Shown: piece by piece, positions 3,483-63,818 of the stretch
How positions within the stretch are numbered: position 1 is the stretch's first letter
How the letters are laid out: the number at the start of each line of letters is the position of its first letter
NCBI GenBank assembly: GCA_016791265.1
Contig: JAEUMY010000005.1
Location: forward strand, 91,267-155,266
Source: Betaproteobacteria bacterium
Lineage (GTDB): Bacteria > Pseudomonadota > Gammaproteobacteria > Burkholderiales > Usitatibacteraceae
DNA length: 64,000 bases
Direction: 5' to 3'
Made by a program: the position numbers and the translations under genes
The notes under the pieces: model-generated
Seen by the model: the letters and a program-made list of their open reading frames with translations, nothing else
Databases searched by the model: none
Told to the model about the DNA's origin: nothing

Positions 3483-4844
3483 TTAGCACCCAGATGCAAA
3501 CGCTCTGGCAAGAATGGTCTGTCGAAGTGTGTGCGCGCGTCTTAGATTGACATCAACCTCAGCCTCGACGCCTTGAACAATGGAGAGGCGGCGGTCGATC
3601 TCGTCAACAATGTTTCGCTGTTCCTCAACCGGTGGCATGGGTAGCACAAGCTTGCGACAAGTCGACACCTGAACATTGAATTGGCCCGCTGTTGCCTTTG
3701 ACGTCCTTTCAATACGCTCCCCAACTTCAGGTGACATCAACCAGAAAGCAAGCAGCCGGTTGAGTACGCGCGGACCAGCGCGAAACGTCACGATGGCCTG
3801 ATTGATGTTCCACTCGGGGAAGTCGCCGGGAACAAAGGAAATCTTGCCCAAAGGCGGCCCGACAATATTCATCAGCACATCACCGGGAAAACAGCGGGAC
3901 CGATTTAACGGCCCCTCGTGAATTGCCCTGCGCACAAAGGTAGGCTTGACCGTGAAGTCCAGTGAGCCATCAAAGCCAAGGTTGTAGACCTTTAGGAACG
4001 GGACTTCGCCGCTTCCGCTCACCATTTCATCCGCCTTGGGAGTGGAGCCGCTAGCAACGACATCGCAAACTTCCGCGGTCGACGCCCAAGACCAACCACT
4101 GGGCAAATCGATCTCGGGCGCAAACTCAGGGCGCGCACTATTGGCCTGGGTTGGGTGGGTGGCCCAAAGTTGGCCGCGCAGAGCAGAGGAGAGAACGGCA
4201 GCTTTGTAGCGCTTGAGGTTGGCCTTGACGCGCTTGAGGTTGGCGACGGCTTCGTCGAGGCGGGAGAACTGCTTTTCGAGTTCGGCGACGATCTCAAGCT
4301 GCTCGTCGCCGGTTGCTTCCGGAATCAACGCGGATTCCAAGAACCCTGCGGGGACGCGCTTCTGCCCCACTGCTCCAGTCATCTCATGTGCTGCGGATGC
4401 GCGAAAACTTGAACTCGAAATGAAGTGGTAGACGTAATGCGGATTGATCCCAGGTTTGGGGCGGAGGACGTGAAACTCCGTTGAGCCGAAGCCAATGCCG
4501 TTCTTCAAACCATGCACAACAGCAATCTTTCCGTTCTCCATGCACGGCGTGATCTTCGCAAAGAGGATGTCGCCTTCGCGGAAGTACGTGTAGCCCTTCT
4601 TGACCTCGGCGTACTTGCGAATATTCGCAACATCGACTTGCCCTGAGCCAGCTTCAACGCTCGCCATTGGCACAAAGGAAACCTCCAAGTTGTCGAACAT
4701 TTCACTTCGATTGGGCTTGGGATTCAGGTCAACCAGATCAGTCAAGGGAACGAGTCTTCGACCAGGCCGAACAGAGTTGGAGTTTGGCACCAGATAGCGT
4801 GCGGATGGCTCCCTTACCTCTGTGACGGTTGCGGACTTGCTCAC
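3483..4844 (-). CDS. hsdS: Type I restriction–modification specificity subunit HsdS
   Basis: 453 residues from a GTG at 4844 that overlaps the hsdR stop (GTGA). There are two target-recognition domains. The first (about 27–185) contains GYTYFREGDILFAKITPCMENGK and is followed by a conserved helix (LEKQFSRLDEAVANLKRVKANLKRYK). The second begins at LPSGWSWASTAEV and ends in the repeat-like helix EEQRNIVDEIDRRLSIVQGVEAE. HsdS gives sequence specificity to both methylation and cleavage and normally binds two HsdM subunits. No hsdM gene is visible. One GCGAATATTCGC copy (4617–4628) is read as Ala-Asn-Ile-Arg. Confidence 0.9.
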   Translation of the reverse strand: MSKSATVTEVREPSARYLVPNSNSVRPGRRLVPLTDLVDLNPKPNRSEMFDNLEVSFVPMASVEAGSGQVDVANIRKYAEVKKGYTYFREGDILFAKITPCMENGKIAVVHGLKNGIGFGSTEFHVLRPKPGINPHYVYHFISSSSFRASAAHEMTGAVGQKRVPAGFLESALIPEATGDEQLEIVAELEKQFSRLDEAVANLKRVKANLKRYKAAVLSSALRGQLWATHPTQANSARPEFAPEIDLPSGWSWASTAEVCDVVASGSTPKADEMVSGSGEVPFLKVYNLGFDGSLDFTVKPTFVRRAIHEGPLNRSRCFPGDVLMNIVGPPLGKISFVPGDFPEWNINQAIVTFRAGPRVLNRLLAFWLMSPEVGERIERTSKATAGQFNVQVSTCRKLVLPMPPVEEQRNIVDEIDRRLSIVQGVEAEVDVNLRRAHTLRQTILARAFASGC

Positions 4845-7687
4845 GCCACCAACTCCCGATTCATCTCCTCAATCACCTTCGGCAATTCCTTTCCGAACAA
4901 CTGATGCACTTTCCCCAACCCGCCTTCCTGGCTGAACGGTGCGTACTCAAAATCTTCCATGCTGATGCCGAGGTTGGCGGCGATGTGGTCGCGGATCATT
5001 TCCAGCCAGTGGAGTTGGTCGGGGGTGAAGGGGTGGGTGCGAATATTCGCAATTGAATGTAGGCCACCCTCACCCCGGCCCTCTCCCGCCTGCGGGAGAG
5101 GGGGAACACCGGTTTGTTGTTGCGCAATCCACGCCTTGAAGTTGGCGGCCACGCGCTCGGGATAGGGTACGAGTTCATTTTCCTGATGCATTGCAAAGCG
5201 CACCAGTGACACCAGGTCGGTGAGGATGCGTTTGCCGCTGGCGCCTTTCACCTTGCTCTTGTCCAGCGCGGCATAGGCGTACCACAGGGTGGATTCATCC
5301 ATCAGGTGCGGCGGGGCGTGCAGGGCATCGGCCAGGGCCTTGATGTCCTCAAACTGCAGCGGCGCCTTGGTGGGGCGGTTGTAGAGAATCTGCAGCGCGG
5401 TGATCTCATCCTTGTGTTGTTGGATGAAGGCTTCAAAGGTCTGCACGATGCCTTGGGCGCGTTCACGGGCGGCTTCGCTGAAGCCGGCCTCCAACACTTT
5501 GTCTTGCGTGACGATGTCGATGACGAGTTCCTTCTGCTGCTTCAGTTGCAGCAGCAGTTTGCGCAGGCCGGGGTCGGCCAGCGGCTTCACGGATTGACGG
5601 AGCGCGTCGTCTGCTTCCTGCGGCGTGCGGTCGTGCTTGGGGTTGAGCGCGCTGACAATGCCGCCGGAGATGGCCTTGAGGTCCAGCCCGCCTGCGGCGA
5701 CCAGCACCTTGGCGCGCTCGGCGTCGGTGAGCTGGGCATCCAGCCGGGATAGACGCACGGCCACACTGCTCAAGACTTCCTGCTCCACATTGCCCAGGCT
5801 GACAGCCTGCAGCAGCGCGTCGAATGGCACGGACTTCTTCTGGTCCATGGGGCGGGAGTCGGTCTTGTCCCGCTCGCATACGCCCACGCAGTCGACGATG
5901 ACGAAGTGGTCCTTGCGAATATTCGCACCGGGGTTCACGCCGCGCAGATCGTCGTCCTTGATCACGCGAACGCCACGGCCTTTCATCTGCTCGAAGAAGC
6001 TGCGCGATTTCACGCTGCGCATGAAGACGACGATCTCCACCGGCTTGATGTCCGTGCCCGTGGCGATCATGTCCACGGTCACGGCGATGCGCGGGTAGTA
6101 GCTGGTGCGGAAAGCCTTGATGAGGTCTTCGGGCTTGGCGCCCGTGGTGCGATAGGTGATCTTCTGCGCGAATTCGTTACCCCGCCCAAACTCCTCGCGC
6201 AGGATTTGCACGATGGCTTCGGCGTGGTTGTCGTCCTTGGCGAAGACAAGGGTCTTGGGCAGCTCTTCGCGTTGAGGGAAAAGATCAGCCTTCCATTTGT
6301 CCCGAAGCGTGCGGGCGATGGTGCGGATCTGGTCCGGCGTCTGCACGCTGCGGTCCAGCTCAGTCGGTTCGTACTCGAAGTCGTCGTCAAGCTGCCAGTC
6401 GCGCTTGGCGCGCGTTTCCTTGTCGCGCACTTCCAGCCAGTAGCCGGCCTCCACCTTGGAGCCGGCCTCGGTCACTTCCGTCTTGATGCGGTAGACGTCG
6501 TAGTTGACGTTCACGCCATCGGCCACAGCCTGCTCGTGGCCGTACTCCATCACCAGGTTCTGGTTGAAAAAACCGAAGGTCTGCTTGTTCGGTGTCGCGG
6601 TGAGGCCGATGAGGTAGGCGTCGAAATACTCCAGCACCTGCCGCCAGAGGTTGTAGATGGAACGGTGCGCCTCGTCGGTGACGACGATGTCGAACGTCTC
6701 GATGGGAATGGCCGGGTTGTAGTCGATGGGCTCGGGCGCCGCGAAAAGGCCTTCCGTTCGCTCGGTGCTGTGCTCGTCATCCTCCTCCGCCAGATCGCGC
6801 CCCTTCAGCATGGAGAACATGCGCTGAATGGTGCAGATGGTGACGCGGGCGGACTTGTCCAGGCTGTTGCTGGTGAGGTGCTGAACGATGTATTCCTCAC
6901 CGAACTTGTAGTTGTTGTGCGGGGAGAGGTAAGCGTCGAACTCCTTCTTGGCCTGGCGTCCGAGATTGCCGCGATCCACCAGGAACAACACGCGGCGCGC
7001 GCCGGCAAACTTGATGAGCCGGTAGATGAAGCTGATGGCGGTGAAGGTCTTGCCGCTACCTGTCGCCATCTGGATGAGGGCGCGCGGCTTGTTGGCGGCG
7101 AGGGACTTCTCAAGATTCTGGATGGCCGTGATCTGCGCGGGCCAGAGCTTGCGGACTTCTTCACCCGTGCCCCATTCGGTGACGAGATGGGGCATGTGCT
7201 GCAGGCGCGCGAGGAAGGTGGGCGGTGGTGCCTGCACGCTGGCGCTACCCTGTGTTGGAAGGTAGTGCAACCACTCGGCCAACAGCTCGGCACGGTGAAA
7301 GGCGAACACGCTTCGCGCGCGAGGGTTAGGGTCCAGCCCATTGGTGAAATGGGTTTCGATGCCAGTGGACTCGTACAGGAAAGGCAGCGGTCGCCGCCAC
7401 GCCGGCAGTGCCTCAGGGAGACCTTGCGCGTACTTGGCGGACTGCGCCTCGACGCCCGTGAGCGTGGCACCCTGCTTCTTGGCTTCAATGACGCCGCAGG
7501 CTTTGCCGTCCACGTAGAGCAGGTAATCCGCGAAGCCATGACTCGAATTCAGCGGAAACTCCCGCAGGGCCACCCCACGCGCCGCATGCAGATTGGCCGC
7601 GGCCACGTCCTGCACCGACCAGCCTGCCAGAGCGAGCAGCTCGTCGATGGTCTGACGCGCAAGTTGTTCGGGTTGGGCGGGGATCAA
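4841..7687 (-). CDS. hsdR: Type I restriction endonuclease subunit HsdR
   Basis: 948 residues. An N-terminal PD-(D/E)XK-type nuclease (Asp54, Glu68-Ala-Lys70) precedes a superfamily 2 helicase with ATGSGKT (208–214), DEAH (338–341) and a later GRGVR motif, then a long C-terminal helical region. It is the ATP-driven translocase and nuclease of a type I system. The only start in frame is a TTG at 7687 with no clear ribosome binding site. Around residues 860–880 the chain carries a low-complexity LPQAGEGRGEGG segment encoded by an intergenic-type palindrome (5079–5102). Two GCGAATATTCGC copies are in frame (5039–5050, 5915–5926). It overlaps hsdS by four bases. Confidence 0.9.
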   Translation of the reverse strand: MIPAQPEQLARQTIDELLALAGWSVQDVAAANLHAARGVALREFPLNSSHGFADYLLYVDGKACGVIEAKKQGATLTGVEAQSAKYAQGLPEALPAWRRPLPFLYESTGIETHFTNGLDPNPRARSVFAFHRAELLAEWLHYLPTQGSASVQAPPPTFLARLQHMPHLVTEWGTGEEVRKLWPAQITAIQNLEKSLAANKPRALIQMATGSGKTFTAISFIYRLIKFAGARRVLFLVDRGNLGRQAKKEFDAYLSPHNNYKFGEEYIVQHLTSNSLDKSARVTICTIQRMFSMLKGRDLAEEDDEHSTERTEGLFAAPEPIDYNPAIPIETFDIVVTDEAHRSIYNLWRQVLEYFDAYLIGLTATPNKQTFGFFNQNLVMEYGHEQAVADGVNVNYDVYRIKTEVTEAGSKVEAGYWLEVRDKETRAKRDWQLDDDFEYEPTELDRSVQTPDQIRTIARTLRDKWKADLFPQREELPKTLVFAKDDNHAEAIVQILREEFGRGNEFAQKITYRTTGAKPEDLIKAFRTSYYPRIAVTVDMIATGTDIKPVEIVVFMRSVKSRSFFEQMKGRGVRVIKDDDLRGVNPGANIRKDHFVIVDCVGVCERDKTDSRPMDQKKSVPFDALLQAVSLGNVEQEVLSSVAVRLSRLDAQLTDAERAKVLVAAGGLDLKAISGGIVSALNPKHDRTPQEADDALRQSVKPLADPGLRKLLLQLKQQKELVIDIVTQDKVLEAGFSEAARERAQGIVQTFEAFIQQHKDEITALQILYNRPTKAPLQFEDIKALADALHAPPHLMDESTLWYAYAALDKSKVKGASGKRILTDLVSLVRFAMHQENELVPYPERVAANFKAWIAQQQTGVPPLPQAGEGRGEGGLHSIANIRTHPFTPDQLHWLEMIRDHIAANLGISMEDFEYAPFSQEGGLGKVHQLFGKELPKVIEEMNRELVA
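5079..5102. repeat. REP-like palindrome embedded in hsdR
   Basis: The arms CCCTCTCCCGC and GCGGGAGAGGG are separated by only two bases. This CTCTCCCGC/GCGGGAGAG type of hairpin is, from general knowledge, a common intergenic repeat in beta- and gammaproteobacteria. Here it is read in frame and encodes Pro/Gly/Glu-rich residues. Confidence 0.6.
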
Positions 7688-7693: not shown

Positions 7694-7705
7694 GCGAATA
7701 TTCGC
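7694..7705. repeat. GCGAATATTCGC palindrome upstream of hsdR
   Basis: Perfect copy lying 6 bp before the TTG start of hsdR, so it occupies the ribosome-binding region. Confidence 0.9.
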
Positions 7706-7783: not shown

Positions 7784-7795
7784 GCGAATATTCGC
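7784..7795. repeat. GCGAATATTCGC palindrome downstream of the RAMA-like gene
   Basis: Perfect copy, extended to 14 bp (CGCGAATATTCGCG), in the spacer between the RAMA-like gene and hsdR. Confidence 0.9.
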
Positions 7796-8310: not shown

Positions 8311-8401
8311 TAGAGACTTGAGCCTCTAGGCTTAGGCCGTAGCCTAGCCACCTTCTCTCGCATCGCTCTGCTATTTACAATTGCACTTCAGCAAGCTAAA
8401 T

Positions 8402-8419
8402 TGTTAGATATGTCTAACA
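8402..8419. promoter_or_regulatory. Operator-like repeat over the HTH gene start
   Basis: Perfect inverted repeat TGTTAGA-TATG-TCTAACA that contains the ATG at 8410–8412. Binding by the encoded HTH protein would block expression of its own operon. Confidence 0.5.
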
Positions 8420-9559: not shown

Positions 9560-9571
9560 GCGAATATTCGC
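9560..9571. repeat. GCGAATATTCGC palindrome after the AbiEii-like gene
   Basis: Perfect intergenic copy 11 bp after the stop of the nucleotidyltransferase gene. Confidence 0.9.
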
Positions 9572-11457: not shown

Positions 11458-11469
11458 GCGAATATTCGC
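11458..11469. repeat. GCGAATATTCGC palindrome upstream of yceH
   Basis: Perfect copy directly before the yceH start, in its leader region. Confidence 0.9.
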
Positions 11470-11507: not shown

Positions 11508-11519
11508 GCGAATATTCGC
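11508..11519. repeat. GCGAATATTCGC palindrome, second copy upstream of yceH
   Basis: Perfect copy 38 bp from the previous one, between it and the tandem-repeat tract. Confidence 0.9.
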
Positions 11520-11739: not shown

Positions 11740-12594
11740 TTACTTCACTTCAATGCTGCCCTTCATGTTCGGATGCAACCCGCAGATGTAGCCGTAGGTG
11801 CCGGGCTTGTCGAAGGTGAGCGTCTCGCTCTGGCCCTTCAGCATGACGCCAGTGCGTTGGCCCTGCTTGCCGTCTGCGGCCACGAGCGTGACCTGATGCG
11901 GCGAATCGTCGACATTGGTCCAGGTGATTTTCTGTCCGACCTTGGCCTCGTGCTTTTCCGGACCGAACAGAAAATCGGCGATGGCGATGACGCCCGGCGC
12001 GGGCTTGGCCGCGGCACCGGCATTGCCACCCAGCCGCGCCAGCGTGATGACAAAGTCCTGCTTCTCGTGCGGCTTGTGGCAGGTGAAGCAGCTCTTGAGA
12101 TTGGCTTTCTCGTTCACCTTCTTGTCGGCGGTGAAGACCTGGTACTCCCATTCGCCGTTGCGCACATCGTCCGAATATTCGCCGCCCCACCCTTTGCCCT
12201 TTTGCATCACGGTGTAGGCGACGAGATCGCCCTTCTTGAAGCGGCCTTTCTCATCCTTGACCGGCACGCCCTTGTCGTCGACGACCGCCTTGTACTGCAC
12301 CAGGGTCAGCACGGTGTCGTGCGGGATGGGCTTGCCGGCTTTCACGGCCGCGACCGCCGCCGGCGTGGACCAGAGCTCGCGGTACTGCTTGATGTCGTGG
12401 CGATCCACCGTGCCGTACATCACGCCTTTGTCCCAGCCTTCCGGGAAGGCCACCTTCTCGCCGCCTGCTCCGACTGCGAAAGAGGTGGTCAGCGCGAGGG
12501 CTGCCAATGCCGCAGTGGCAACATGAGATCGACGAAAGGTGCGGCGGACGGGGTTGATGCGGACGAAAGGGAACTGCGTGCGGGGGCTTGTCAT
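11740..12594 (-). CDS. Cytochrome P460–cupredoxin fusion, periplasmic
   Basis: 284 residues with an N-terminal signal (VATAALAALALTTSFAVGA). Residues about 45–185 resemble cytochrome P460, with a single c-type haem motif CFTCH at 169–173. A short Ala/Pro linker (193–200) leads to a cupredoxin domain whose type 1 copper ligands appear as His233, Cys271, His274 and Met277 (CGLHPNM). P460 proteins act on hydroxylamine or nitric oxide in nitrogen-cycling bacteria. A fused blue-copper domain could serve as the built-in electron acceptor, which is inference. A one-mismatch palindrome (CCGAATATTCGC, 12171–12182) lies inside. Confidence 0.75.
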   Translation of the reverse strand: MTSPRTQFPFVRINPVRRTFRRSHVATAALAALALTTSFAVGAGGEKVAFPEGWDKGVMYGTVDRHDIKQYRELWSTPAAVAAVKAGKPIPHDTVLTLVQYKAVVDDKGVPVKDEKGRFKKGDLVAYTVMQKGKGWGGEYSDDVRNGEWEYQVFTADKKVNEKANLKSCFTCHKPHEKQDFVITLARLGGNAGAAAKPAPGVIAIADFLFGPEKHEAKVGQKITWTNVDDSPHQVTLVAADGKQGQRTGVMLKGQSETLTFDKPGTYGYICGLHPNMKGSIEVK

Positions 12595-12702: not shown

Positions 12703-15258
12703 TCAGCGCCGCGCGACGGTGCGATTGCGGCCCTCGTTCTTGGCCGCGTAGAGCGCCTCGTCGGCCAGCTTGAACAACTGGTCGAATTGACTGTTGGCGT
12801 CGCCCAGACTGCCGGTGGAGTCGGGTCCCGGGCGCGGCAGCACGGCGCAACCGAAGCTCATGGTGACCGGCACCGGCCGGCCGTCCCAGCGGAGCGGTGC
12901 TGTCTCCACCGCCTGGCGCAAGCGCTCGGCCGCCGCCTCGGCCGCTTCCAGATCGGACTCGGGCAGCAACAGCGCGAACTCTTCGCCGCCCATGCGGCCG
13001 ACGGTGTCGATGGTGCGCTTCAACGACGCGAGCAGGAGAGCCACGGCCGTCAACACCATGTCGCCCGCCGGGTGACCCAGCGAGTCGTTGATGCGCTTGA
13101 AGTGATCGAGATCGCCCAGGATCAGCGCGGGCGACTTGCCGGTGCGGCGGCTGCGCTTCAGTTCGGCCTCGGCGGATGCGACAAAGCTTCGCCGGTTGGG
13201 AATGCCCGTGAGCGAGTCGGTGGCCGCCAGCGCGCGAAGCTCCGCCTCCGCGCGGCGCAATTGCGCGTTGGCGGCGTCGAGCTCGCGATACGCGGCCGCG
13301 TTGGCCAGCGCCACGGCCGCGTAGGCGGCGAGCGTGCGGAACACGAGCAGCTCGCGCTCGCCGTACGCGCGCACGCTGCGCGATTGGATGGTGAGCACGC
13401 CCAGCAACTTCTCCTGCACGATGAGCGGGCCGAACCAGGCCGTGTGCGTGGTGAGCACGCCGGCGGTGAGCGTGTCGGGCTTCTCGCCGATCTCGAGCTC
13501 CTGCAAGATTTCGCGCCGCTCCCGCGCGCAGCGCGCCGCGTTGGAATCGAGTGCGGTGATGTCGATGCGGCGAAGCGGAATCGGTTTGCCCTCGTCCAGC
13601 GCGGAGCGGATGAGCGTCTTGCCATCCTTTTCCAGGAGCGACACGGCCATGTAATGCACTTCGGTCAGGTTGCCGATCTGCTGGTTCAGCACATCGAGAA
13701 TGCCCGCCACATCGTGGCGCGCGGTGATTTCCTGGCCGATGTGACCGAGATGGGCGAGCGTCTCCAGCGATGTCTCCAGCGCGCGCGCGCGGCTCGCTTC
13801 GGCGGTGAGGAGGCTGCGCTGGTGCTCGGCGTCGAGCCGCTGCTTCTCGGTGTCGTAGCGCACCTGGGCAAGCAGGACCATGTTGTTGGCGCGGCGGTGG
13901 GCCTCGGTCTTCTCCGCTTCGCGCGCCTTGCGCTCGGCCTTCAGCGCGGCGGCGAGATCGCCGACCGCCTCGTAGGCGCGTGACAGCTCGCCGTGCAACT
14001 GGCCGCTCTCATGATGCCCGCCGATGTGGTCCACCACCTGCAGCGCGGCCTCCAGAAACTCCACGGGCTTGACTTTGGCGTGGCTCACCGCATGGCTCAT
14101 GTGGACTTCCGCAAGCGAGCGCAACGCCTCGACTTCCCACATGCGCGCGCCGGTCTCGCGGGCGAGTTCGAGGGCGGCCTGCGCCTTCTCCAGCGCCTCC
14201 TTGGGACGACCCAGGCGCGACAGCGCCTGGGCGGACACGGCGCGTATGCACGCCACTTCGGGCAATGCCCCAAGATCTCGCATCAGATTTTCCGCATGGG
14301 CGAGCTCGGTCGCGGCAACCTGCACCCGGCCGGCGGCAAGCAGTGCATCGCCGAGGTAGTACGTCGCCACCGCGTATCCGCGCGAGCGCGGCTGATCGGC
14401 GATCAGCTCGCGCGCCTCCTCCAGCATCAGGATGGCCCGCTCGGGCGCGCCACCGTCCGCAAGCTGCCGACCAAGGTTGGAGAGCGCGTGCGAGATGAGC
14501 CGCGGCCAGCCGAGCTGCCGCGTGCGCGCGAGCAGGCCTTCGCACAAGGCGCCGCACGACTCGCGGTCGCCCAGGTTGGAGTAGGCGGAGGCGAGCCCCA
14601 GTCCCGCGCGGAGTCCTTGCTCGATCAGGCCGAGGCTATCGGCTTCGGCGTAGACGCGGGTGAGATGCGGCACCGCGTCCAGAAAGCGGCCGAGCTGAAA
14701 CGCGCTGAAGGCTTCCACCAGCGCCACGTGCGTCGCGAGCGCGGGCGGGAGGGGCGAATATTCGCGTCTCAACGCGGCGCACTCGGCGGCGGTCGCATCT
14801 TGCGTCGGCTCGCCACCTGCGATCAGGTATGCCGCGCGCGCATGGCCGAGCCGCTCGAAGTCCTGGGCCGCGCGATAGTGGTCGATGGCGATCTGGCGCT
14901 GTTCCAGTTCGAGGTGACGTTCGCCGCGCCCTTCCAAGACCCGCGCCAGCAGATGAGCCACGTCGCCGCGCGCCGCGGGCTCCTTCGCGGCGGCCAACGC
15001 ATGCCGGGCGAATTGCTCCGCGCCGCCGAGCGCCGCGCGATGCAGCGCGCATTCACCGCGCGTGAGAAAGAGCCGCGCCGCCAGCGGCCCCGCCGCGTCA
15101 CCATCAATGCCCTGCAGCAATTGCTCGGCGCGCTCGACATCGCGCTGCCGCAAATGCCAGGCGAGCAGAATCGTTCCCTGCCGCCGCTGCAATCCATCCA
15201 GCGACGGCAACCGCGCTTCCTGGCGGCGGACCTCTTCGTCGGTGACATAGAACTGCAT
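12703..15258 (-). CDS. TPR–GAF–GGDEF diguanylate cyclase
   Basis: 851 residues, no signal peptide. The N-terminal 450 residues are helical repeats of TPR type. A coiled segment (AERKAREAEKTEAHRRANN) leads to a GAF-like domain (about 490–650) and a GGDEF domain with the intact active site GGEEF at 757–761 and LGDLDHFKRINDSLGH before it. It should make cyclic di-GMP in the cytoplasm in response to a ligand or partner bound by GAF/TPR. One GCGAATATTCGC copy (14754–14765) is read as Glu-Tyr-Ser. It follows thiC by 24 bp on the same strand. Confidence 0.85.
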   Translation of the reverse strand: MQFYVTDEEVRRQEARLPSLDGLQRRQGTILLAWHLRQRDVERAEQLLQGIDGDAAGPLAARLFLTRGECALHRAALGGAEQFARHALAAAKEPAARGDVAHLLARVLEGRGERHLELEQRQIAIDHYRAAQDFERLGHARAAYLIAGGEPTQDATAAECAALRREYSPLPPALATHVALVEAFSAFQLGRFLDAVPHLTRVYAEADSLGLIEQGLRAGLGLASAYSNLGDRESCGALCEGLLARTRQLGWPRLISHALSNLGRQLADGGAPERAILMLEEARELIADQPRSRGYAVATYYLGDALLAAGRVQVAATELAHAENLMRDLGALPEVACIRAVSAQALSRLGRPKEALEKAQAALELARETGARMWEVEALRSLAEVHMSHAVSHAKVKPVEFLEAALQVVDHIGGHHESGQLHGELSRAYEAVGDLAAALKAERKAREAEKTEAHRRANNMVLLAQVRYDTEKQRLDAEHQRSLLTAEASRARALETSLETLAHLGHIGQEITARHDVAGILDVLNQQIGNLTEVHYMAVSLLEKDGKTLIRSALDEGKPIPLRRIDITALDSNAARCARERREILQELEIGEKPDTLTAGVLTTHTAWFGPLIVQEKLLGVLTIQSRSVRAYGERELLVFRTLAAYAAVALANAAAYRELDAANAQLRRAEAELRALAATDSLTGIPNRRSFVASAEAELKRSRRTGKSPALILGDLDHFKRINDSLGHPAGDMVLTAVALLLASLKRTIDTVGRMGGEEFALLLPESDLEAAEAAAERLRQAVETAPLRWDGRPVPVTMSFGCAVLPRPGPDSTGSLGDANSQFDQLFKLADEALYAAKNEGRNRTVARR

Positions 15259-15282: not shown

Positions 15283-17337
<2,055 letters not shown>

Positions 17338-17343
17338 TCGGTG

Positions 17344-23166: not shown

Positions 23167-23946
23167 ATGGCGGAACACGCCCAAAAACTTCCTCTATCCG
23201 TCGTCATCATCGCGCTCAACGCCGCGAAACAGATCGAGCCCTGTCTCGCCAGCGCGCGCTTCGCTGACGAGGTGCTGGTGGTTGACTCCGGCAGCGCCGA
23301 CGAGACGCGGGCGATCGCCGATGTCGCGGGTGCCAGAGTGGTCGAGAAGGAGTGGCTGGGCTTCGGCCGCCAGAAGCAGTTCGCGGTGCAGCAGGCGAAA
23401 CACGACTGGGTGCTGTGCCTTGACGTGGATGAGCGGGTGACGCCGGAACTGGAAGCGAATATTCGCACCGCGCTGGCGCGGGATGATCACTTCGCCTGGC
23501 GCATGCCGCGGCGCAATCGTTTTCTGGGACGCTGGCTGCAGCATGGCGAGGGCTACCCGGACTGGAGCTTGAGGCTGTTCCATCGCGCCCATGCGAGCTG
23601 GAGCAACGACGATGTGCATGAGACGGTGATGACGACGGTGGATGTGGGCACGCTGAAGGGAGACCTGCTGCATGACTCCGCCGAGGACGTGACGACCTAT
23701 CTGGCCAAGCAGAACCGCTATTCCTCGCTGCATGCCGAAGCGCTGTACAGCCAGGGCGTGCGCGCAGGGTATGGCCGCCTCTTGTTGTCGCCGCTCGCGC
23801 GGTTCATCAAGTTTTACTTCCTGCGACTGGGCTTTCTCGACGGCGGTCCGGGCTTCGCCCATGTCGCCATCGGCTGCTTCGCCGCATTTTCCAAGTACGC
23901 CAAGCTGATCGAATTGTCGGTCGGCGAAAAGAAGGTTTCGACATGA
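23167..23946 (+). CDS. WaaE/KdtX-like family 2 glycosyltransferase
   Basis: 259 residues. The GT2 start [18 protein letters not shown] and the metal-binding Asp in LCLDVDERV are present, and the basic stretch [21 protein letters not shown] is typical of WaaE/KdtX-like core glucosyltransferases. It likely adds a hexose to inner-core heptose. One GCGAATATTCGC copy (23455–23466) is read as Ala-Asn-Ile-Arg. It overlaps rfbB by four bases and begins the rhamnose operon. Confidence 0.85.
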
Positions 23947-30394: not shown

Positions 30395-30406
30395 GCGAAT
30401 ATTCGC
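30395..30406. repeat. GCGAATATTCGC palindrome between gspF and gspG
   Basis: Perfect copy, extended by flanking bases to an 18-bp palindrome (30392–30409). It occupies the main non-overlapping gap of the operon and could form an mRNA hairpin before gspG. It is the last copy before a 14.2-kb motif-free block. Confidence 0.9.
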
Positions 30407-42755: not shown

Positions 42756-42795
42756 TTCTCGCGACCAAGTCCTAGAAACGACAGGTTCACATCCT

Positions 42796-42830: not shown

Positions 42831-42848
42831 AGCGACACTCTCATTCAC

Positions 42849-51226: not shown

Positions 51227-52996
51227 CTAGAAGGTCAGTCTGACAAGGTTCTTCGTGCCCCTCAATCCGCCAGACATCGTGTAGCTCATGGTGAGCGTGG
51301 TCGGAGACGTGAAGGTGAAGGTCGCCGAGCCCACCACTTGGCTGCTGGCGATGGCTGGATTGTAAGGCTCGGTGTAGCCGGTGCGTGACAGCTGAATCCA
51401 CGAACCATTGAACGTGTTGATGCCGGTCCAGTTGCCGGAGAAGAAGAACCAGATGGGTTTTCTCTCGGGTGCCGCCGTGTACTGGTACCAGATGATGCCC
51501 AGCGTCCCGCTCGACTCGCCCTGGATGATCGAGATGCCGGTGCCGTCCTCGGTCGGGTCGCTCCAGGATCCCGAGTAATCCACCGCCAGATACTTGCGAA
51601 TATTCGGAAAAACCTGATCGAAGCGGGAATACCAGTCGCGATTGTTGGTGTTGTCCACATTGCCCGCGTTGCTGCATGCGGCGAAACCACCGTAGAGGGA
51701 TCCGCGCACGAAGTACTCGTTGTCGGCGAAAGTGAAAATGGCCGAGCCGCTTGATCCGCCTTCGGTGGTTCCACTGGTCCAGGCAGCCGTCGTGAACTGC
51801 TGATTGGCGAATTCAGACAGCGGGGTGAAGCCGACGAACCGCCCCTTCGAGACCTTCTTCGCGTCGCCGCGCGGATGGTGAATGGCGGTGAAGGTTGTGC
51901 CTTCGGTGATGGTGTTGGCGTCCCAGCCGGCGAAAAACGCGCCTGACGGAGGCGAACCGCGCAACTTCAAAAGCAGCGCGTCACGGTTGGTCTCCTTGTA
52001 GAGCAGATCGGCGCCTCCGGCCACGATGTTGCTGGTCGATGCGGAACCGCCGCCGCAGGCACTCCGCTCGTAGCTCCAAATCGTGTTCAAGGTGCTGGCC
52101 TCGGTTTGCGTGCCGATGCAGTGATTGGCCGAGTAGAAGTAGGGAATCTGCGTGGATGTGTCGCCATCATTGAGCAGCGTGCCGGTGCAGATGCAGGAGG
52201 CCAACGCGCCGCCGGTGCCGCAGGTGGCCTGAAACTGCATCCACGCGACGGCATTCTTGGCGTTCACGAAAGCCGTGGTTTGCGGCTCGCATCGCACATC
52301 CACGTTGCAAGTGCCGGAATCGCCCAGCGCCTTGGCCGTCTTGAAGCCGTCGTTCGGGGAGGCGAATAGGTGCGAGGCGCTGTCCACGTTGATGCGCACA
52401 CCGGCCGCGCTTTGCCCCGGCGGAACATAGACTTCGATGATCTGCTCGGCGCCCACGGTGAGCGGTGTCCAGTAAGTCGTGCTTTCACGGCGGGCTTCGC
52501 GGATGTCGGCGGCTGTGGCGGCGTAGGTCACCTCGCCCGCCGCGTTGGCGAAGCGAAGCTCAGCGCCATCAGGCAGCCCCGTGACATCCAGTCCGACTCG
52601 CAGCGCTTTGGCGTCCTGAGAACTTACGACCAAGCGCGAAATGCCGCCACCGTCGTTGTGCGCGACCCAACGAAGCGTCGGGCTCACCAGAAACTCATCC
52701 TTCAACTTGCGCACGATGCCAACCTGCATCGACTTCTGCTGCAACGTGGCGTTGCGTTCCTGAATCGCATTGATCTCGCTGGCGTTGGCGGGTCCCATCC
52801 GCACCACGGCCGCCTCCAACTCGGACAGATTCGGCTGCCGCAAACTCAGCGCCGCCTGACTCTTGGTGGCTTTGACCGGCTCGCCACTCATCTTCAGTTG
52901 CGCGTGGGCCGCAAGCGGGCTGATCGCAACGGTGACGGCGGCGAGACCTGCTGCCCACACACAAAGGCGTGGCAGCGAGCGGAGAGAGACCTTCAT
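51227..52996 (-). CDS. Secreted lysyl-endopeptidase-like S1 protease
   Basis: 589 residues from the ATG at 52996, which has AGGA at proper distance (ATG at 53002 is too close to it). The signal is VSLRSLPRLCVWAAGLAAVTVAISPLAAHA. A propeptide of about 200 residues precedes GTCNVDVRCE, where mature lysyl endopeptidases of the Achromobacter protease I type begin. The triad appears as His in SANHC, Asp in NRDALLL and Ser in GGSSGSAIF. A C-terminal domain begins YSGSWSDPTEDGTGISI. It is a likely T2SS substrate, and its promoter shares an 18-bp element with gspE. A one-mismatch palindrome lies at 51596–51607. Confidence 0.85.
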   Translation of the reverse strand: MKVSLRSLPRLCVWAAGLAAVTVAISPLAAHAQLKMSGEPVKATKSQAALSLRQPNLSELEAAVVRMGPANASEINAIQERNATLQQKSMQVGIVRKLKDEFLVSPTLRWVAHNDGGGISRLVVSSQDAKALRVGLDVTGLPDGAELRFANAAGEVTYAATAADIREARRESTTYWTPLTVGAEQIIEVYVPPGQSAAGVRINVDSASHLFASPNDGFKTAKALGDSGTCNVDVRCEPQTTAFVNAKNAVAWMQFQATCGTGGALASCICTGTLLNDGDTSTQIPYFYSANHCIGTQTEASTLNTIWSYERSACGGGSASTSNIVAGGADLLYKETNRDALLLKLRGSPPSGAFFAGWDANTITEGTTFTAIHHPRGDAKKVSKGRFVGFTPLSEFANQQFTTAAWTSGTTEGGSSGSAIFTFADNEYFVRGSLYGGFAACSNAGNVDNTNNRDWYSRFDQVFPNIRKYLAVDYSGSWSDPTEDGTGISIIQGESSGTLGIIWYQYTAAPERKPIWFFFSGNWTGINTFNGSWIQLSRTGYTEPYNPAIASSQVVGSATFTFTSPTTLTMSYTMSGGLRGTKNLVRLTF

Positions 52997-53241: not shown

Positions 53242-54345
53242 TCAGGTCAGACTTTTCTTCATGATTTCAATGGCTTGACGCAGCACAAACGCGGGGCCGC
53301 TGCCGTACCTCACGTCCGCCTGGTTCAAAGTCGTGGCCGACGCCTCCGGCAGCCAGGCAAACGGGCGGCGAAAGAGCGTGGTCTGTGGACGCGGGGGCAG
53401 CTCATCCAGCACGGCCGCGCGAAACGGCATGCTGGCCCAAAAGCGCCCGCGTGCATAGATCGCCGTGGGTCCGCGTCCGAAAAGTGCGACCGTGGGTGTG
53501 CCCGTGACTTTGCCCAAGTGCGCGACGCCCGTGTCCGGCGCGATCAGCACCGCTGCATCGCGAACCAGCGCGAACAACTGGGCCAGATCAAGCCGGCCCG
53601 CGAAAGATACGAAATTGCCCGCAGGGTCAACTGCGCGGGTGAGCGCCTCCTCACCGCGTCCAGCAGACAGCACAACGGTCAATCCCGCCGCCTGCAACTC
53701 TCCCGCCAGTTTCTGCCAATGTGTCGCGGGCCAGAATTTTCTGGGATTGCTGGCGCCGATATGCAGGACGGCATAGGGCGCATCCGGCTGGGTGAACGGT
53801 GCGCAGGTCGGCGCGGGCCAATCCGTCCGCGAATACTCGCAAGCCGGACCCTCGATCAGGTCCGCCCACATGTCGCCCAGCGCGTCAGGCGCCGCGGGCC
53901 ACGGCAGGGGCTCGTCCACCCACCAGTTCTTGTGTGCCGGACGGTCATCGCGCCACCCGCTGATCCAGCGCGCATTCATCGCCTGAGCGAGCCAACTGAA
54001 GCGATTGTCGCCCGGCAAAAGCGCCCAATCCCAACCGGGCTCTCCGGTCGCCAGCGCAGCCTGCACGCTGGCCGGGTCGCGCGGCGAGAACGCAATCGCC
54101 TCCACACCGTAAGGCCGCCCCGAAAAAAGCGGAGCAAACGCCGGCGGCATCGCCATCGCGAGCGTCGCAGGCTGGCATCGTGCGCGCAGCCGGGCGGCCA
54201 GCGCTACTGTCATCAACGTGTCGCCAAGGAGAAGCTGATGCGCGATGAGGATGCGTTGCGGCGACTCGGGCCGGACGCGCGGACCGGCAAGTCGTCTGGC
54301 GAGCGCGCGGGCGACAATCGTGGCGCGCGTTCGGAACCGCGTCAT
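53242..54345 (-). CDS. Family 9 (heptosyltransferase-like) glycosyltransferase
   Basis: 367 residues. The GT9 pattern RILIAHQLLLGDTLMTVALAARL, YAVLHIGASNPRKFWPATHW and LIAPDTGVAHLGKVTGTPTVALFGRG is clear. GT9 enzymes add heptose or related sugars to the LPS core using ADP-heptose. It follows the GT4 gene by eight bases and belongs to the GT4–msbA–GT4–GT9 set. A one-mismatch palindrome (GCGAATACTCGC) lies at 53829–53840. Confidence 0.85.
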   Translation of the reverse strand: MTRFRTRATIVARALARRLAGPRVRPESPQRILIAHQLLLGDTLMTVALAARLRARCQPATLAMAMPPAFAPLFSGRPYGVEAIAFSPRDPASVQAALATGEPGWDWALLPGDNRFSWLAQAMNARWISGWRDDRPAHKNWWVDEPLPWPAAPDALGDMWADLIEGPACEYSRTDWPAPTCAPFTQPDAPYAVLHIGASNPRKFWPATHWQKLAGELQAAGLTVVLSAGRGEEALTRAVDPAGNFVSFAGRLDLAQLFALVRDAAVLIAPDTGVAHLGKVTGTPTVALFGRGPTAIYARGRFWASMPFRAAVLDELPPRPQTTLFRRPFAWLPEASATTLNQADVRYGSGPAFVLRQAIEIMKKSLT

Positions 54346-54353: not shown

Positions 54354-55481
54354 TCAGTCGCCGGACGCGCCGGCCCCGTCCAGCCGAGTCGCGCCCGCCG
54401 CCGCCAGTGCGAATATTCGCTCCATGCGCGCAACCATCAGATCCGCGCTGAACCGTTCCCGCGCGCGGGCCAATGCCGCCGCGCCGAGGGCGCTGCGGAG
54501 CGGCGCATCGGACTTGAGCTTCTCGATGGCTGCGCGGAGCGTGATCACATCCTGGGGCGCCACCATCAACCCGGTTTCGCCATCGGTGACGATCTCGTCG
54601 ATGCTGCCCACCGGTGTGCTGACGACCGGCAGCCCGCAGGCCATGGCCTGCATCAACGCCTGCGGCACGCCTTCGTTGGCGTAGGACGGCAGCACGAAAA
54701 TGTCGAACGATTGCAGCCAGGGCGGCACGTTCTTCTGATTGCCGACGAAGCGCACGCGCGACTTCATGCCGAGCGATTCCACCTGCGCTTCCAGCGCGGC
54801 GCGCTGCGGACCGTCGCCCGCGACGACGAGGTGGATGTCTGTGAGCGGCTGCAGCGCCTCCAGCAGATAGCGATGGCCCTTCCAGCTGCGCAGCGTCGCC
54901 ACGATACCGACGATGAAGGCGTCGGCGGGCAAGCCGAGTTCAGCACGCTTCACCGCGCGATCATCGGGATGGAAACGCGTGAGGTCGATACCGGTCGGCA
55001 CCGATTCAACGCGCCCGGCCGCGACATGCACTTCCCGCATCATTTGTTCGCGCAGTTTCTCGCCGGTGGTCGCGATGAAACGGGTGGCGGCGTTGTACAG
55101 CCAGCGCGAGGAAAAGTTGTCCGGCACGGGCGCCGAGATGTGGCGCGTGCGCACCAGCGGTGGCGGATCGCTCAGCGTCGCGCAGGCGAGCGCTGCGAGC
55201 CAGGTGTCCGTGGAGCTGTGGGTGTTGATGACATCGCACGGGTGGGTCTTCAACCATTTGCGCAGCTCAAACAGGCCGCCGAGACGCTTCTTGCCGATCG
55301 GCAACGCCAGCGTGGGGATGCCGCGCGCCTCGCCTTCCCTGCGAATATTCGCGTCCGGCGGCGCGATCAGCGTGACGTGATGTCCGCGCGCGATCATGCC
55401 CTCGGCCTCGGTGAGGATGCGGATTTCCTGTCCGCCCCAGCCCAGCGACGCCTCGGTGTGCAGGATGTGCAGCGGCTTCAT
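54354..55481 (-). CDS. Family 4 glycosyltransferase (1)
   Basis: 375 residues. It begins ILHTEASLGWGGQEIRILTEAEGMIARGHHVTL and has the GT4 nucleotide-sugar pattern FDIFVLPSYANEGVPQALMQAMACGLPVVSTPVG. It should act at the cytoplasmic face in LPS core or polysaccharide assembly. Its start overlaps the msbA stop (ATGA). Two palindrome copies lie inside: 54409–54420 (Arg-Ile-Phe-Ala) and 55341–55352 (Ala-Asn-Ile-Arg). Confidence 0.88.
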   Translation of the reverse strand: MKPLHILHTEASLGWGGQEIRILTEAEGMIARGHHVTLIAPPDANIRREGEARGIPTLALPIGKKRLGGLFELRKWLKTHPCDVINTHSSTDTWLAALACATLSDPPPLVRTRHISAPVPDNFSSRWLYNAATRFIATTGEKLREQMMREVHVAAGRVESVPTGIDLTRFHPDDRAVKRAELGLPADAFIVGIVATLRSWKGHRYLLEALQPLTDIHLVVAGDGPQRAALEAQVESLGMKSRVRFVGNQKNVPPWLQSFDIFVLPSYANEGVPQALMQAMACGLPVVSTPVGSIDEIVTDGETGLMVAPQDVITLRAAIEKLKSDAPLRSALGAAALARARERFSADLMVARMERIFALAAAGATRLDGAGASGD

Positions 55482-57263: not shown

Positions 57264-58397
57264 TTAGCCTGGCGCAAGACCGAGCAGCTCCCGATACAGC
57301 GCCACATACTCCGCCGCCATGCGCTGCGGCGTGAACGGCAGCACGCGTTCCCTCGCTGCGGCACCCATGACTTCGCGGTTGTCGTACGCGCGCTGCATGG
57401 CGTCCGCGTAGGCCGGCCCGTCGATGGCATCGCGCACGAAGCCTTCCTTGCCTTCCTCGATCAGCTCCGCCGCGCCGCAGGTGGGTGAGGTGATGGCGGG
57501 CAGCCCGCAGGCCATGGCCTCAAGCACCGCGTTGGGCAGCGGGTCGTAGAGTGTTGGGAGCACGAACACGTCCGCCGCCGCGTACCAGGGCAGCACGTCC
57601 TCCACGCCGCCGGTGAAGTACACGCGGTCCGTGAGACCCAGTTGGTCGGCATACGCCTGAAACGCGACGAGGCGCTTGTCCGCGCCCACCACGATGCCGC
57701 GTGCGTTATCCGGCAGATCGGCCAGCGCGATGAGAAAGGCCACCAGCCCCTTCCGCTCGAAGCCCGAACCGACGAAGAGATACGTGGGCGCCGCCTTGCG
57801 AATATTCGCAGTCTTGCGCGCGTCTTTTCGAAACGCTTCCTTCAGTCCAGGGTGGAATTTGTCGGCATCCACTGCATTGCGGATCACACGCAGTTTCTCC
57901 GGCGCGGTGCCGAAGTGGCGTTCGATTTCGCCTTTCACCATCTCGGAATTGCAGATCACGGCCTTCAATCGCGGCGAGGTGAACAACTCGCGCTCGGCAC
58001 TGAGCAGGAAGCGATGGTGCGGATTCAGCTTCACCGACAACTGCTTGCCGAGGCTGGTCACGCGCTTCCGCTGCGCGAGCCATTCGGCATGCACGCCATC
58101 GCCTGCACGGTAGACGTCACAGCAGGCGATGCGCTCGTGAGACTGCACGAGGTCGAACTTCTCTTCGGCGAGCGCCGCACATACAGCCTTGGCAAACCCG
58201 GCATCGCGCCACCAGCTGCCGAGGTAGAACGGGTCAACAATCCGATTGCGAATATTCGCGTTGGCATTGGTGGGCCACTTGCGCGTGATGACCGTCAGTT
58301 CGACATCGGCCTCGGTCAGCGCGCCCAGCGCATTCTCGATGAACCGTTCCGCGCCGCCGAACGGGTTGTAGCGGCTGCGGATGAGCACGACCTTCAT
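57264..58397 (-). CDS. Family 4 glycosyltransferase (2)
   Basis: 377 residues. The N-terminus VVLIRSRYNPFGGAERFIENALGAL and the C-terminal ADVFVLPTLYDPLPNAVLEAMACGLPAI mark a GT4 enzyme; FGGAERF and VYRAGDGVHAEWL resemble LPS core glucosyltransferases of the WaaG group. It lies 19 bp before msbA on the same strand. Two palindrome copies (57798–57809, 58248–58259) are both read as Ala-Asn-Ile-Arg. Confidence 0.87.
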   Translation of the reverse strand: MKVVLIRSRYNPFGGAERFIENALGALTEADVELTVITRKWPTNANANIRNRIVDPFYLGSWWRDAGFAKAVCAALAEEKFDLVQSHERIACCDVYRAGDGVHAEWLAQRKRVTSLGKQLSVKLNPHHRFLLSAERELFTSPRLKAVICNSEMVKGEIERHFGTAPEKLRVIRNAVDADKFHPGLKEAFRKDARKTANIRKAAPTYLFVGSGFERKGLVAFLIALADLPDNARGIVVGADKRLVAFQAYADQLGLTDRVYFTGGVEDVLPWYAAADVFVLPTLYDPLPNAVLEAMACGLPAITSPTCGAAELIEEGKEGFVRDAIDGPAYADAMQRAYDNREVMGAAARERVLPFTPQRMAAEYVALYRELLGLAPG

Positions 58398-60321: not shown

Positions 60322-63300
60322 ATGACCACACGTTCCTGGCGCGCGGTTCGCCGCGCGCTTTCCGCCGCCTGTCTCACCTTGGCAGCCGCCGCCGCACCGG
60401 CAGGCGCCACCTATTTCCGCATGCCGGCGATGGCCGGCGACACCGTGGTGTTCGTCTCCGAAGGCGACATCTGGCGGGCACCTGCGGGCGGCGGCCAGGC
60501 GGTGCGCCTCACCACGCATCCCGAATTGGAGAGCACTCCCTACCTCTCCCCAGACCGCCAGTGGCTGGCCTTCGTCGGCCGCTATGAAGGCCCGGCCGAG
60601 GTGTACGTCATGCCGCTCACCGGCGGCACGCCCAAGCGCCTCACCCATGACGGCGGCAACTCGGCGCGGGTGCAAGGCTGGACGCCGGACGGCAAAATTC
60701 TCTACTCATCGTCCCGCTACAGCGGCAAGCCCGGCACGCGTCTTTACACGCTGGACCCGAAGACGGGTGAGCGCGGATCGCTCCCGCTCGCGGAGGCGGC
60801 TGAAGGCTGCTACCTGGGCGGCGACCTCATCTTCACCCGCCGCAGCGTGCTCTCCGACAACGTCAAGGCCTACACGGGCGGCCGCGCGCAGAACCTGTGG
60901 AAATTCGACGGCAAAGGCGAGGCGACTGCCCTCACCGCCGACTACGCCGGCACCAGCCGCCAACCGATGTGCTGGCAGGGCCGCGTCTACTTCCTCTCCG
61001 ACCGGGATGGCAGCATGAACCTCTGGTCCATGAACCCGACGGGCAAGGACCTGAAGCAGCACACCCGCCACGCCGGCTGGGACATCAAGAGTGCCGCGCT
61101 CGACAACGGCAACGTCGTCTATCAGCTGGGCGCCGACTTGCGAATATTCGCAGTGCAGAACAATCAGGATCGCGCTCTCAACGTCGTCTTGAACGGCGAC
61201 TTCGACCAGGCGCGCGCGCGCTGGGTGAAGAATCCTTGGGACTACGTCACCAACCTCGCACTCTCGCCCACGGGCGACCGCGTGGCTTTGACCGCGCGCG
61301 GCCAAGTGTTCGTGGCCCCGGTCGGTGCGGGCCGCCGCGTGGAAGTCACGCGCTCATCGACCACTCGTGCCCGCGAAGCGCGCTTCATGCCCGATGGCAA
61401 GAGCGTGGTCGCGTTCTCGGATGCGAGCGGCGAGTTCGAGTTGACCCGCTATCCCGCCAACGGCGTCGGTGAGAGCAAGCAACTCACGAGCGGCGCCACG
61501 GTGCTGCGCCAGGGCTTCTCCGTGTCGCCCGATGGCAAGTGGATTGTGCATGCCGACAAGGACCAGAACCTGTATCTGCTCAATGTCGCCTCCGGCGAAA
61601 ACAAGAAACTCGACCAGAGCACGCAGTTCGGCTACTCCGATTTCGAGTGGTCGCCGGACAGCAAGTGGCTCACCTACTCGACCGCTGCTGAAAACCAGTT
61701 TGAGCAAATCTGGCTGGTCGACATCACGACAGCCAAGAAAACCGTGCTGACCAGCGACCGCTATCACGCCCGCTCGGCCGCGTTTTCGCCGGACGGCAAG
61801 TGGCTGTGGTTCCTCTCCGCGCGCACGCTGACACCGCTGGTCGGCAGCCCCTGGGGCCAGCGCAACATGGGCACGGTGTTCGACCGCCAGACCAAAATTT
61901 ATGCGCTGGCGTTGGCCAAGGACGCGCAGTGGCCGTTCCAGCCGAAGGACGAGCTGCAGAAGGCCGAGCCGGAGAAGAAGCCGGACGCACCTGCATCCGT
62001 CGCCCCGGCCGATGCTGGCAAACCCGCCGGGGCCCAAGTTTCCACCAAAGCCGATGCACCGAAAGCTGACGCAAAGGATGCTCCCAAGGCCGACGCCGCC
62101 AAGCCTGCCGCCGCGGCCACACCGCCGGCGCCGAAACCCATCGTTATCGATCTCCCCGGCCTCACCACACGCTTGTACGAGGTGCCCGTGCCTGCCGGCA
62201 ACTACAACGAGCTCGCCACCGACGGCAAGCGCCTCTACTTCGTGACCAGCGAGCCCAACCCAGGTGCGCCGCAGCCGCGTCGCGCGTTGCGCACTGTGGC
62301 CATCGAGCCCGTCGGCCTCACCCCGCCCACGGTCGAACTCTTCTTCGATGATCTGCGCGGCTACGAGCTGTCTCGCGACCGCAAGAAAGTGCTGCTGCGC
62401 AAGGCCAACGACCTCTGGGTGGTTGATGCCGGCGCCAAGGCGCCGCCGGACTTGGGCAAGTTCGTCGTCAACCTGCGTGATTTCACCTTCGATCTCGATC
62501 CGCGCGAGGAATGGCGGCAGATGTTCATCGACGCCTGGCGCATGCATCGCGACTATTTCTACGACAAAGCCATGCATGGCGTGGACTGGAAAGCCATGCG
62601 CGCCAAGTACGAACCACTGGCCCGCCGCGTGAATGATCGCGCCGAGCTGAACGATGTGCTGGCCCAGATGATTTCCGAGCTCTCGCTGCTGCATAGCCAA
62701 GTGGGCGGCGCGGAGCTGCGCAAGGGCCCGGACGAGATTGACGTCGCTGCACTCGCCGCCGATCTCAGCAAAGTGGCCGATGGCTGGCGCGTGGACCGCC
62801 TGTACAGCGGCGACCCCGAGTTGCCCGAGGAGAACGGCCCGCTCGCCCAGCCCGCCAACCCGGTGAAGCCCGGCGAGGTCATCACCCACATCAATGGTGT
62901 CGCAATCGCCAAGACCGTGCCCGGTGATCTGCTGCGCAATCAGGCCGGAAAGCAGGTGCTGTTGGCGGTGAAGGATGCGGCCGGCAAATCCCGCGACGTC
63001 ATCGTCACCCCCATCTCCACCCAGCGCGACGCGCAACTGCGCTATCTCACCTGGGAATGGGAGCGCAAGGCGCGCGTGGAAGAGAAATCGAAGGGCCGCT
63101 TCGGCTACCTGCACCTGCAGGCCATGACCCCGCCCGATCTCGGCCGTTGGGCGCGCGAGTTCTATCCCGTGTTCCAGCGCGAGGGCCTCATCATCGATCT
63201 GCGCAACAACAACGGCGGCTCCATCGACAGCATGCTCATCGAGAAGCTGCTCCGCCGCGCCTGGGCCTGGTGGAAGCCGCGTTCATCGCCGCGCACCTTT

Positions 63301-63806: not shown

Positions 63807-63818
63807 GCGAATATTCGC
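63807..63818. repeat. GCGAATATTCGC palindrome at the right edge
   Basis: Perfect intergenic copy beyond the S41 terminator, three bases before a 19-bp direct repeat. Confidence 0.9.

Follow-up and report, generated by a model that had tools for sequence, protein, structure and literature searches.

Genome-wide accumulation of short sequences, such as HIP1, the uptake sequences and Chi, has a cause that has long been debated. Here we describe such a sequence, the 12-bp perfect palindrome GCGAATATTCGC with the AT-centred core AATATT and a weaker 16-bp form TTGCGAATATTCGCAA, found in a 64,000-nucleotide stretch of DNA (hereafter the window) that is part of contig 12 of assembly G000 (3.94 Mb in 24 contigs, 89.9% complete). 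The host is probably betaproteobacterial, judging by homologs named as Usitatibacter(aceae), Betaproteobacteria, Burkholderiales and Nitrosomonadaceae; no 16S rRNA gene was found in its assembly. To our knowledge, GCGAATATTCGC is the longest highly iterated palindrome. No account of GCGAATATTCGC or GAATATTC as an iterated motif was found among the papers listed by a literature search that left subscription journals mostly outside. That search led to cyanobacterial highly iterated palindromes, uptake sequences and a 38-copy palindrome of Caldithrix; of 482 papers containing GAATATTC, none of the 20 listed describes it in its title or opening abstract lines, and the one listed of 4 papers containing GCGAATATTCGC concerned an unrelated DNA-crosslink subject.

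Several described systems resemble the motif in part. Repetitive extragenic palindromic (REP) repeats and their associated RAYT elements are palindromic, occur in many copies and, among intergenic positions, prefer gene 3' ends. The motif shares these traits but its copies are mostly genic, are not inserted at the compared sites and have no conserved body beyond about 16-20 bp, whereas a REP or other mobile palindrome is an extragenic inserted element with a longer conserved body. Closer are HIP1 (GCGATCGC) and the alternate cyanobacterial highly iterated palindromes (HIPs), which are likewise iterated genome-wide, vary by one base mostly at their ends and have a sporadic phylogeny (PMC4390886). 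They are 5-8 bp long and cyanobacterial there (PMC4390886), unlike the 12-16 bp of the present motif and its probably betaproteobacterial host; the core AATATT also sets it apart, as does the lack of a clear orphan methyltransferase among five families. The DNA uptake sequences (DUS) and uptake signal sequences (USS) of Neisseriaceae and Pasteurellaceae are comparable in density (about 1/kb, 0.4/kb here), in substitutional origin, in many genic copies, in a strict core with graded flanks and in a lineage-specific motif (PMC1939737, PMC7811141). They are non-palindromic, however, whereas GCGAATATTCGC is perfectly palindromic, has no detectable enrichment of forms with at least two mismatches, and has a predicted uptake role. 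An 18-nt palindrome of Caldithrix abyssi is also over-represented, without an assigned function and devoid of conserved flanks (PMC5317091). It has 38 exact copies, an intergenic preference and a strand-oriented centre, whereas GCGAATATTCGC has 1,624 copies, is mostly genic and is fully symmetric.

GCGAATATTCGC is in extreme genome-wide excess, as HIPs are. The 1,624 exact copies lie in 3,937,828 bases, about 1 per 2.4 kb, against 0 in the reversed-sequence control. In a first sample of 21 stretches of the genome (461 kb) the motif was present in 21 of 21 and was the top 12-bp palindrome with 195 copies, the runner-up having 7. Extended to 1.261 Mb, or 32% of the assembly, the sample to which the copy statistics below refer held 541 perfect copies, or 1 per 2,331 bp where 0.3 copies in all were expected, and the density did not differ between contigs (chi-square 10.3, 17 degrees of freedom). 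Within the window, 31 matches with at most one mismatch were observed against a dinucleotide-shuffle mean of 0.29 and maximum of 2. A sequence-only reading of the window had listed 26 perfect copies; every start position was borne out, and its division into 12 copies read as Ala-Asn-Ile-Arg (ANIR), 3 as Glu-Tyr-Ser (EYS), 3 as Arg-Ile-Phe-Ala (RIFA) and 8 non-coding was reproduced with independent codon-model gene calls. The four one-mismatch sites that it gave also stand, but their total is five, the copy at 860 having been overlooked. Its comparison with HIP1 holds for the extreme, genome-wide and palindromic character of the motif, both within and between genes. The two outcomes it had named as contrary, genome-wide counts near random and copies confined to the window as part of a larger mobile repeat, did not occur, since the copies are spread genome-wide and flank information is almost nil past about +5.

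To follow how the copies arose, the 1.26-Mb sample was compared with 1.24 Mb of G001, the family relative for which most sequence was sampled. Among 1,099 predicted genes, 127 had a best tblastn match (not reciprocal) in G001 at ≥55% identity over ≥70% of the length; these carry 45 motif sites, of which 3 fell outside the aligned part, leaving 42 comparable. None of the 42 is an insertion, the motif columns being present in G001 every time, and in this respect the genome-wide excess arises by substitution as in DUS and USS. When distant homologs were compared under looser criteria, gaps did appear at or near the motif in some alignments. Amino-acid identity to G001 was 38% for motif residues, compared with 56% in the ten flanking residues to either side and 68% over entire genes. 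G001 DNA agrees with 5.4 of the 12 motif positions, compared with 3.0 when same-frame places are drawn at random from these genes, and copies have therefore arisen preferentially at part-matching places; all-or-none block replacement was dropped on the same ground. At the coding sites compared, copies were thus made by in-place substitution, within regions that are rather variable and at spots that already matched in part, and the protein bore the cost.

The history of single sites was traced at the protein level in ThiC and in a gamma-glutamyltransferase-like protein. Of 120 listed ThiC homologs, 3 read ANIR at the site, namely the query itself and two that are 95% and 93% identical to it; the first residue is proline in 116 and arginine in 1. 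The gamma-glutamyltransferase-like protein has three sites, and in the query and seven relatives at 81-86% identity (P0241-P0248) RIFA178 was present in 8 of 8, ANIR283 in 7 and ANIR335 in 3, while none of the other 112 listed homologs had any of the three motif peptides. The relatives with same-site peptides come from several sources, and as seven of them share motif-type peptides in one protein, the motif is likely a trait of a clade.

Outside this presumed clade the motif is nearly absent among the searched genomes, which hold at most 9 copies. The exact 12-mer was found in 15 of 61 genomes (G000 included), with 27 family members holding at most 4 each, and in 117 of 398 genomes of the phylum (G000 included), with 4 as the highest other count. 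Within the order, 34 of 399 genomes contain the 13-mer TGCGAATATTCGC; G067 has the highest count after G000, with 9, and the 12-mer likewise occurs 9 times in it. No second genome of the genus of G000 was among the genomes listed in these searches. The single copies of G149 and G249 lie within what by eye is a permease-like gene and not an operator. We also surveyed the relatives for iterated palindromes of their own (top three per length listed), and no 10- to 14-bp palindrome exceeded 4 copies in 20 stretches of 3-20 kb from 19 relatives or in 24 loci of other organisms. Some GC-rich 8-bp palindromes attain raw counts of 10 to 13 in the surveyed stretches; one of them, CCTCGAGG, was counted 13 times within 20 kb (L065) of G005, a family relative of 71% G+C, and is possibly another iterated palindrome. 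Among viral contigs, 102 stretches matched the 14-mer, mostly as a single copy, which may be chance given millions of contigs, and they were unused as evidence. In the pieces examined, two viral contigs (L084, L121 and L102; L092 and L100) have three and two copies of ATCTGCGAATATTCGCAGAT with flanks ATCT/AGAT, possibly a phage operator set, and a viral contig has a 32-bp perfect palindrome centred on the motif (L112:1269-1300).

Copies occur in genes and spacers alike, at a density about 3.5-fold higher in non-coding DNA (1.10/kb) than in coding DNA (0.32/kb). Genes are touched by 341 of the 541 copies (63%); PMC1939737 gives 65% for the uptake sequence of H. influenzae and 35% for the N. gonorrhoeae DUES. 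The three coding frames are used 193 : 74 : 73 in favour of ANIR, and of 199 ANIR tetrapeptides in the 1,099 predicted proteins 193 are the motif, the related peptides ANVR, ANLR and ANIK occurring 4, 2 and 1 times. Non-coding copies favour short spacers between genes as well as the 3' ends of genes, with 78 of 196 intergenic copies lying within 30 nt of a gene 3' end against 64 ± 5 expected inside the same regions. Under a null that preserves coding and intergenic-length densities (400 simulations), gaps below 700 bp were depleted (21.4% vs 27.5 ± 1.9%, with 0 of 400 simulations that low) and pairs closer than 1 kb mildly so (192 vs 239 ± 26). Neighbouring copies thus repel mildly, and an earlier reading of no evenness was revised once such coding-aware nulls were applied. 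At one place, L019:6571-6759 (contig 2, about 66.6-66.8 kb), four non-coding copies lie within 190 bp near a reading frame that by eye is Rhs-like, in a stretch that also bears ACTTCAGGG and ACTTCGGGG repeats. Contig 9 opens with G runs (L028:1-209; 1-109 and 114-209) that are likely an assembly artefact.

The motif has a strict core and graded margins. The sample contains 83 one-mismatch forms, distributed from the outermost position inwards as 42, 11, 8, 3, 14 and 5, so that variation is greatest at the outermost base, then at position 5, and least at positions 4 and 6; as in HIPs, one-off deviations are commonest at the first or last base (42 of 83). Transitions make up 50 of the 83 (added by hand from the position table), as would be the case if most near copies are decaying; of the decay or birth envisaged by the sequence-only reading, this points to decay. 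Against an order-5 Markov model fitted on motif-masked sequence, with 80 control palindromes for range, one-mismatch forms are in 6.9-fold excess, while forms with two to five mismatches show no excess and stay inside the range of the controls. Two-mismatch forms number 65 against 92 expected (ratio 0.71), 18 of the 80 controls being lower, and the control standard deviation of 0.39 is wide enough for a weak mismatch gradient to go unseen. Around non-coding copies the flanks prefer A at +1 (76%), A at +2 (49%) and then G at +4 (45%), a preference graded to about +4 with little information beyond about +5. The +1 bases on the two sides are independent (252 paired vs 256 expected), as would be the case for a site bound as DNA by a dimer and not for a hairpin. 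A hairpin or RNA element was ruled out on this independence together with the retention of the palindrome in just 3 of 66 two-mismatch forms. A terminator was ruled out by flanks without a T-run, and a promoter element in G000 by 200 intergenic copies that gave no -10 signal at a fixed distance.

We tentatively favour, at a confidence that stays below even, the reading of GCGAATATTCGC as a self-DNA tag under molecular drive that is read during uptake or recombination. Uptake or recombination would favour DNA fragments bearing the motif, and alleles gaining it by chance would in this way replace motif-free alleles even at a protein-changing cost. The drive would act through uptake or recombination, and the tag would be read by a two-fold symmetric, presumably dimeric, protein. 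This reading is favoured because the substitutional origin, the spread over genes and spacers, the cost to proteins, the mild repulsion, the graded flanks and the restriction to a clade are what it predicts. It is preferred over a HIP model because the latter needs a methyltransferase, for which five families gave no clear candidate here. USS are a published parallel, since alignments show that they too evolve through point mutation, with uptake bias acting on them and a spacing of roughly 1 kb (PMC7811141).

A number of observations weigh against the self-DNA tag. DUS and USS are non-palindromic (PMC1939737), and the perfect palindrome GCGAATATTCGC is a better fit to a dimer or an enzyme. Forms with at least two mismatches are at background, whereas the mismatched forms of DUES show graded enrichment (PMC1939737, Table 1). 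The spacing effect is weak, with no depletion among coding-only pairs and a non-significant 5-kb variance test under the strict null. At 3 of the 42 comparable sites the alignment has a gap on the G000 side, G001 being longer there. ANIR is missing from the closest two homologs of the query ThiC (97% and 96% identity), and motif sites consequently turn over. Of the competence machinery expected beside DUS and USS, ComEC is the part that was sought, with one domain match in G000; it was present in 7 of 7 family genomes tested and so does not discriminate.

A possible, though rather unlikely, alternative is that a dimeric DNA-binding protein with a nucleoid-associated or chromosome-maintenance role occupies the motif chromosome-wide, and that the motif is kept because the bound sites are useful. 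The perfect two-fold symmetry, the one-mismatch profile and the independent +1 bases suit such a site, and a nucleoid protein, like repair-linked conversion, is a possible agent behind the motif. Further support comes from G067, of the same order, where the DNA around the sites has 26-36% G+C and 9 of 9 copies share TTGCGAATATTCGCAAAA, the nine having an 18-bp sequence in common and each extending to a palindrome of at least 16 bp. In all nine, a TATAAT-like hexamer with no more than one mismatch lies 23 bp from the core to one or both sides, and this fixed promoter distance, typical of a transcription-factor operator, was seen there and not in G000. The geometry would place the site centre near -41.5, an activator-type position, and the nine copies (L304-L312) form a candidate regulon of an activator. 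Four of them are located 64-78 bp ahead of predicted starts, among them that of a BMFP-family gene. On the evidence of G067 the order may have a protein that reads this core, but the genome was chosen for its motif and a coincidence is possible. Transcription-factor sites are usually degenerate, whereas the copies in G000 are nearly all perfect (541 vs 83 with one mismatch). That density does not differ between contigs speaks against terminus- or origin-linked roles, and separate selection at about 1,600 sites despite protein damage is hard to justify. No DNA-binding reader candidate turned up in G000, where no general search for one was made.

Less probable still is a HIP1-like origin, in which the motif is or contains a methyltransferase target and is created and kept by methylation-linked mismatch repair or selection, as in the model of Elhai (2015). 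An extreme palindrome excess with deviations mostly at the end bases accords with this, the latter being described for HIP1 in section 2.6 of PMC4390886, and so does the presence of one C5 methylase gene in G000. The same source predicts saturation near 1 site per 1,000 nt and describes HIPs of 5-8 bp (PMC4390886), compared with 1 per 2.3-2.4 kb and 12-16 bp here. The methylase content of G000, a genome 90% complete, gives the idea of a methyltransferase target, raised by the sequence-only reading, no positive support. The profiles PF01555 and PF02086 had 0 matches each. PF00145 matched the C5 methylase gene, but this lies in a 4.4-kb locus of 49% G+C that is free of the motif, beside GmrSD_N and NO VEIN-type neighbours. 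The single PF02384 match is a gene that probably encodes a type I subunit and lies 1.6 kb beyond the window; the motif-free G007 and G010 have matches of similar score. PF07669 matched the PF02384 gene and one other, for which relatives also have matches of similar score. By these profile matches, the five families appear to yield no clear orphan methyltransferase candidate in the assembly. We know of no methylase site as long as 12-16 bp.

A Chi-like signal, through which the motif would regulate an enzyme of the RecBCD/AddAB type and be favoured by recombination rather than uptake, is improbable. Exact recognition, kb-scale density and a non-coding excess would fit it, but known Chi sites are shorter and non-palindromic, the latter because the translocating enzyme reads one strand. 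A mobile or inserted repeat (of REP, miniature inverted-repeat or RAYT type) or an assembly artefact has hardly any claim left, the high copy number and the proximity of intergenic copies to gene 3' ends being outweighed by the lack of insertions relative to G001 at the 42 compared coding sites, on which together with the scant conserved flank such a repeat was ruled out, by the large share of copies in genes, and by the same peptides at the same sites in database relatives of several sources.

The copies in the window are collected in the table below. A span of 14.2 kb (30407-44641, 57.9% G+C), which includes the type II secretion system secretin gene, has no perfect copy, perhaps by chance or perhaps because this DNA was acquired more recently. 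On the minus strand the window carries a type III-A retron pair, RT_III-A at 924-2060 and PRTase_III-A at 2286-3479, beside hsdS and hsdR, and the PF02384 gene mentioned above is near these genes beyond the window edge. The RNA-like 225-bp gap upstream of the reverse transcriptase (RT) gene (2061-2285) has, by eye, the imperfect inverted repeats GTTCTGAACTGCGC and GCGCAGTTCAGGAC, possibly the msr-msd region. At 8401-9548 on the plus strand, beside the restriction genes, the gene of a helix-turn-helix protein adjoins that of an AbiEii-like nucleotidyltransferase, likely a type IV toxin-antitoxin pair.

Copies of GCGAATATTCGC in the window, with their gene context (gene coordinates and strand in brackets; T2SS, type II secretion system; TPP, thiamine pyrophosphate; TPR, tetratricopeptide repeat)
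Feature	Position	Context
Perfect copy	4617..4628	ANIR in hsdS (type I specificity, 3483-4844 -)
Perfect copy	5039..5050	ANIR in hsdR (4841-7687 -)
Perfect copy	5915..5926	ANIR in hsdR (4841-7687 -)
Perfect copy	7694..7705	Non-coding, immediately outside hsdR
Perfect copy	7784..7795	Non-coding
Perfect copy	9560..9571	Non-coding, directly past AbiEii-like gene
Perfect copy	11458..11469	Non-coding
Perfect copy	11508..11519	Non-coding
Perfect copy	14754..14765	EYS in GGDEF protein (12703-15258 -)
Perfect copy	16939..16950	ANIR in ThiC (15283-17166 -), in place of near-invariant proline
Perfect copy	17282..17293	Within variable insert of TPP riboswitch (17213-17340 -) upstream of thiC
Perfect copy	21281..21292	ANIR in Kdo transferase (20789-22060 -)
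Perfect copy	23455..23466	ANIR in glycosyltransferase (23167-23946 +); relative G001 matches 10/12 here
Perfect copy	24140..24151	RIFA in GDP-mannose 4,6-dehydratase-like protein (23943-25010 +)
Perfect copy	24958..24969	EYS in GDP-mannose 4,6-dehydratase-like protein (23943-25010 +)
Perfect copy	26562..26573	ANIR in RmlD-like protein (26433-27296 +)
Perfect copy	29462..29473	ANIR in T2SS protein F (29123-30364 +)
Perfect copy	30395..30406	Non-coding
Perfect copy	44642..44653	ANIR in TPR/GT41 protein (43817-46030 +)
Perfect copy	50142..50153	EYS in coding sequence 49115-50275 +
Perfect copy	54409..54420	RIFA in glycosyltransferase (54354-55481 -)
Perfect copy	55341..55352	ANIR in glycosyltransferase (54354-55481 -)
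Perfect copy	57798..57809	ANIR in glycosyltransferase (57264-58397 -)
Perfect copy	58248..58259	ANIR in glycosyltransferase (57264-58397 -)
Perfect copy	61140..61151	RIFA in tricorn-like protease
Perfect copy	63807..63818	Non-coding, past tricorn-like gene
One-mismatch copy	860..871	Immediately downstream of RT gene (924-2060 -)
One-mismatch copy	12171..12182	
One-mismatch copy	33843..33854	
One-mismatch copy	51596..51607	
One-mismatch copy	53829..53840	

As the motif is long enough for nearly every copy to be non-random, is rare in the family, and has database relatives both with and without motif-type peptides, its gains, losses and protein costs can be dated site by site, and its reader protein becomes an object that can be searched for. 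We hold it a real prospect, if not quite an even one, that a clade outside the cyanobacteria has a symmetric 12-16-bp self-DNA tag with a dimeric reader that is not a methyltransferase, and that drive has rewritten conserved enzymes and a riboswitch in place. If the tag reading is true, GCGAATATTCGC would be the palindromic counterpart of the DNA uptake sequences. If its accumulation is driven by uptake, the rule that uptake tags are asymmetric would be broken; if it is not, the motif may be a HIP that lacks a recognised methyltransferase.

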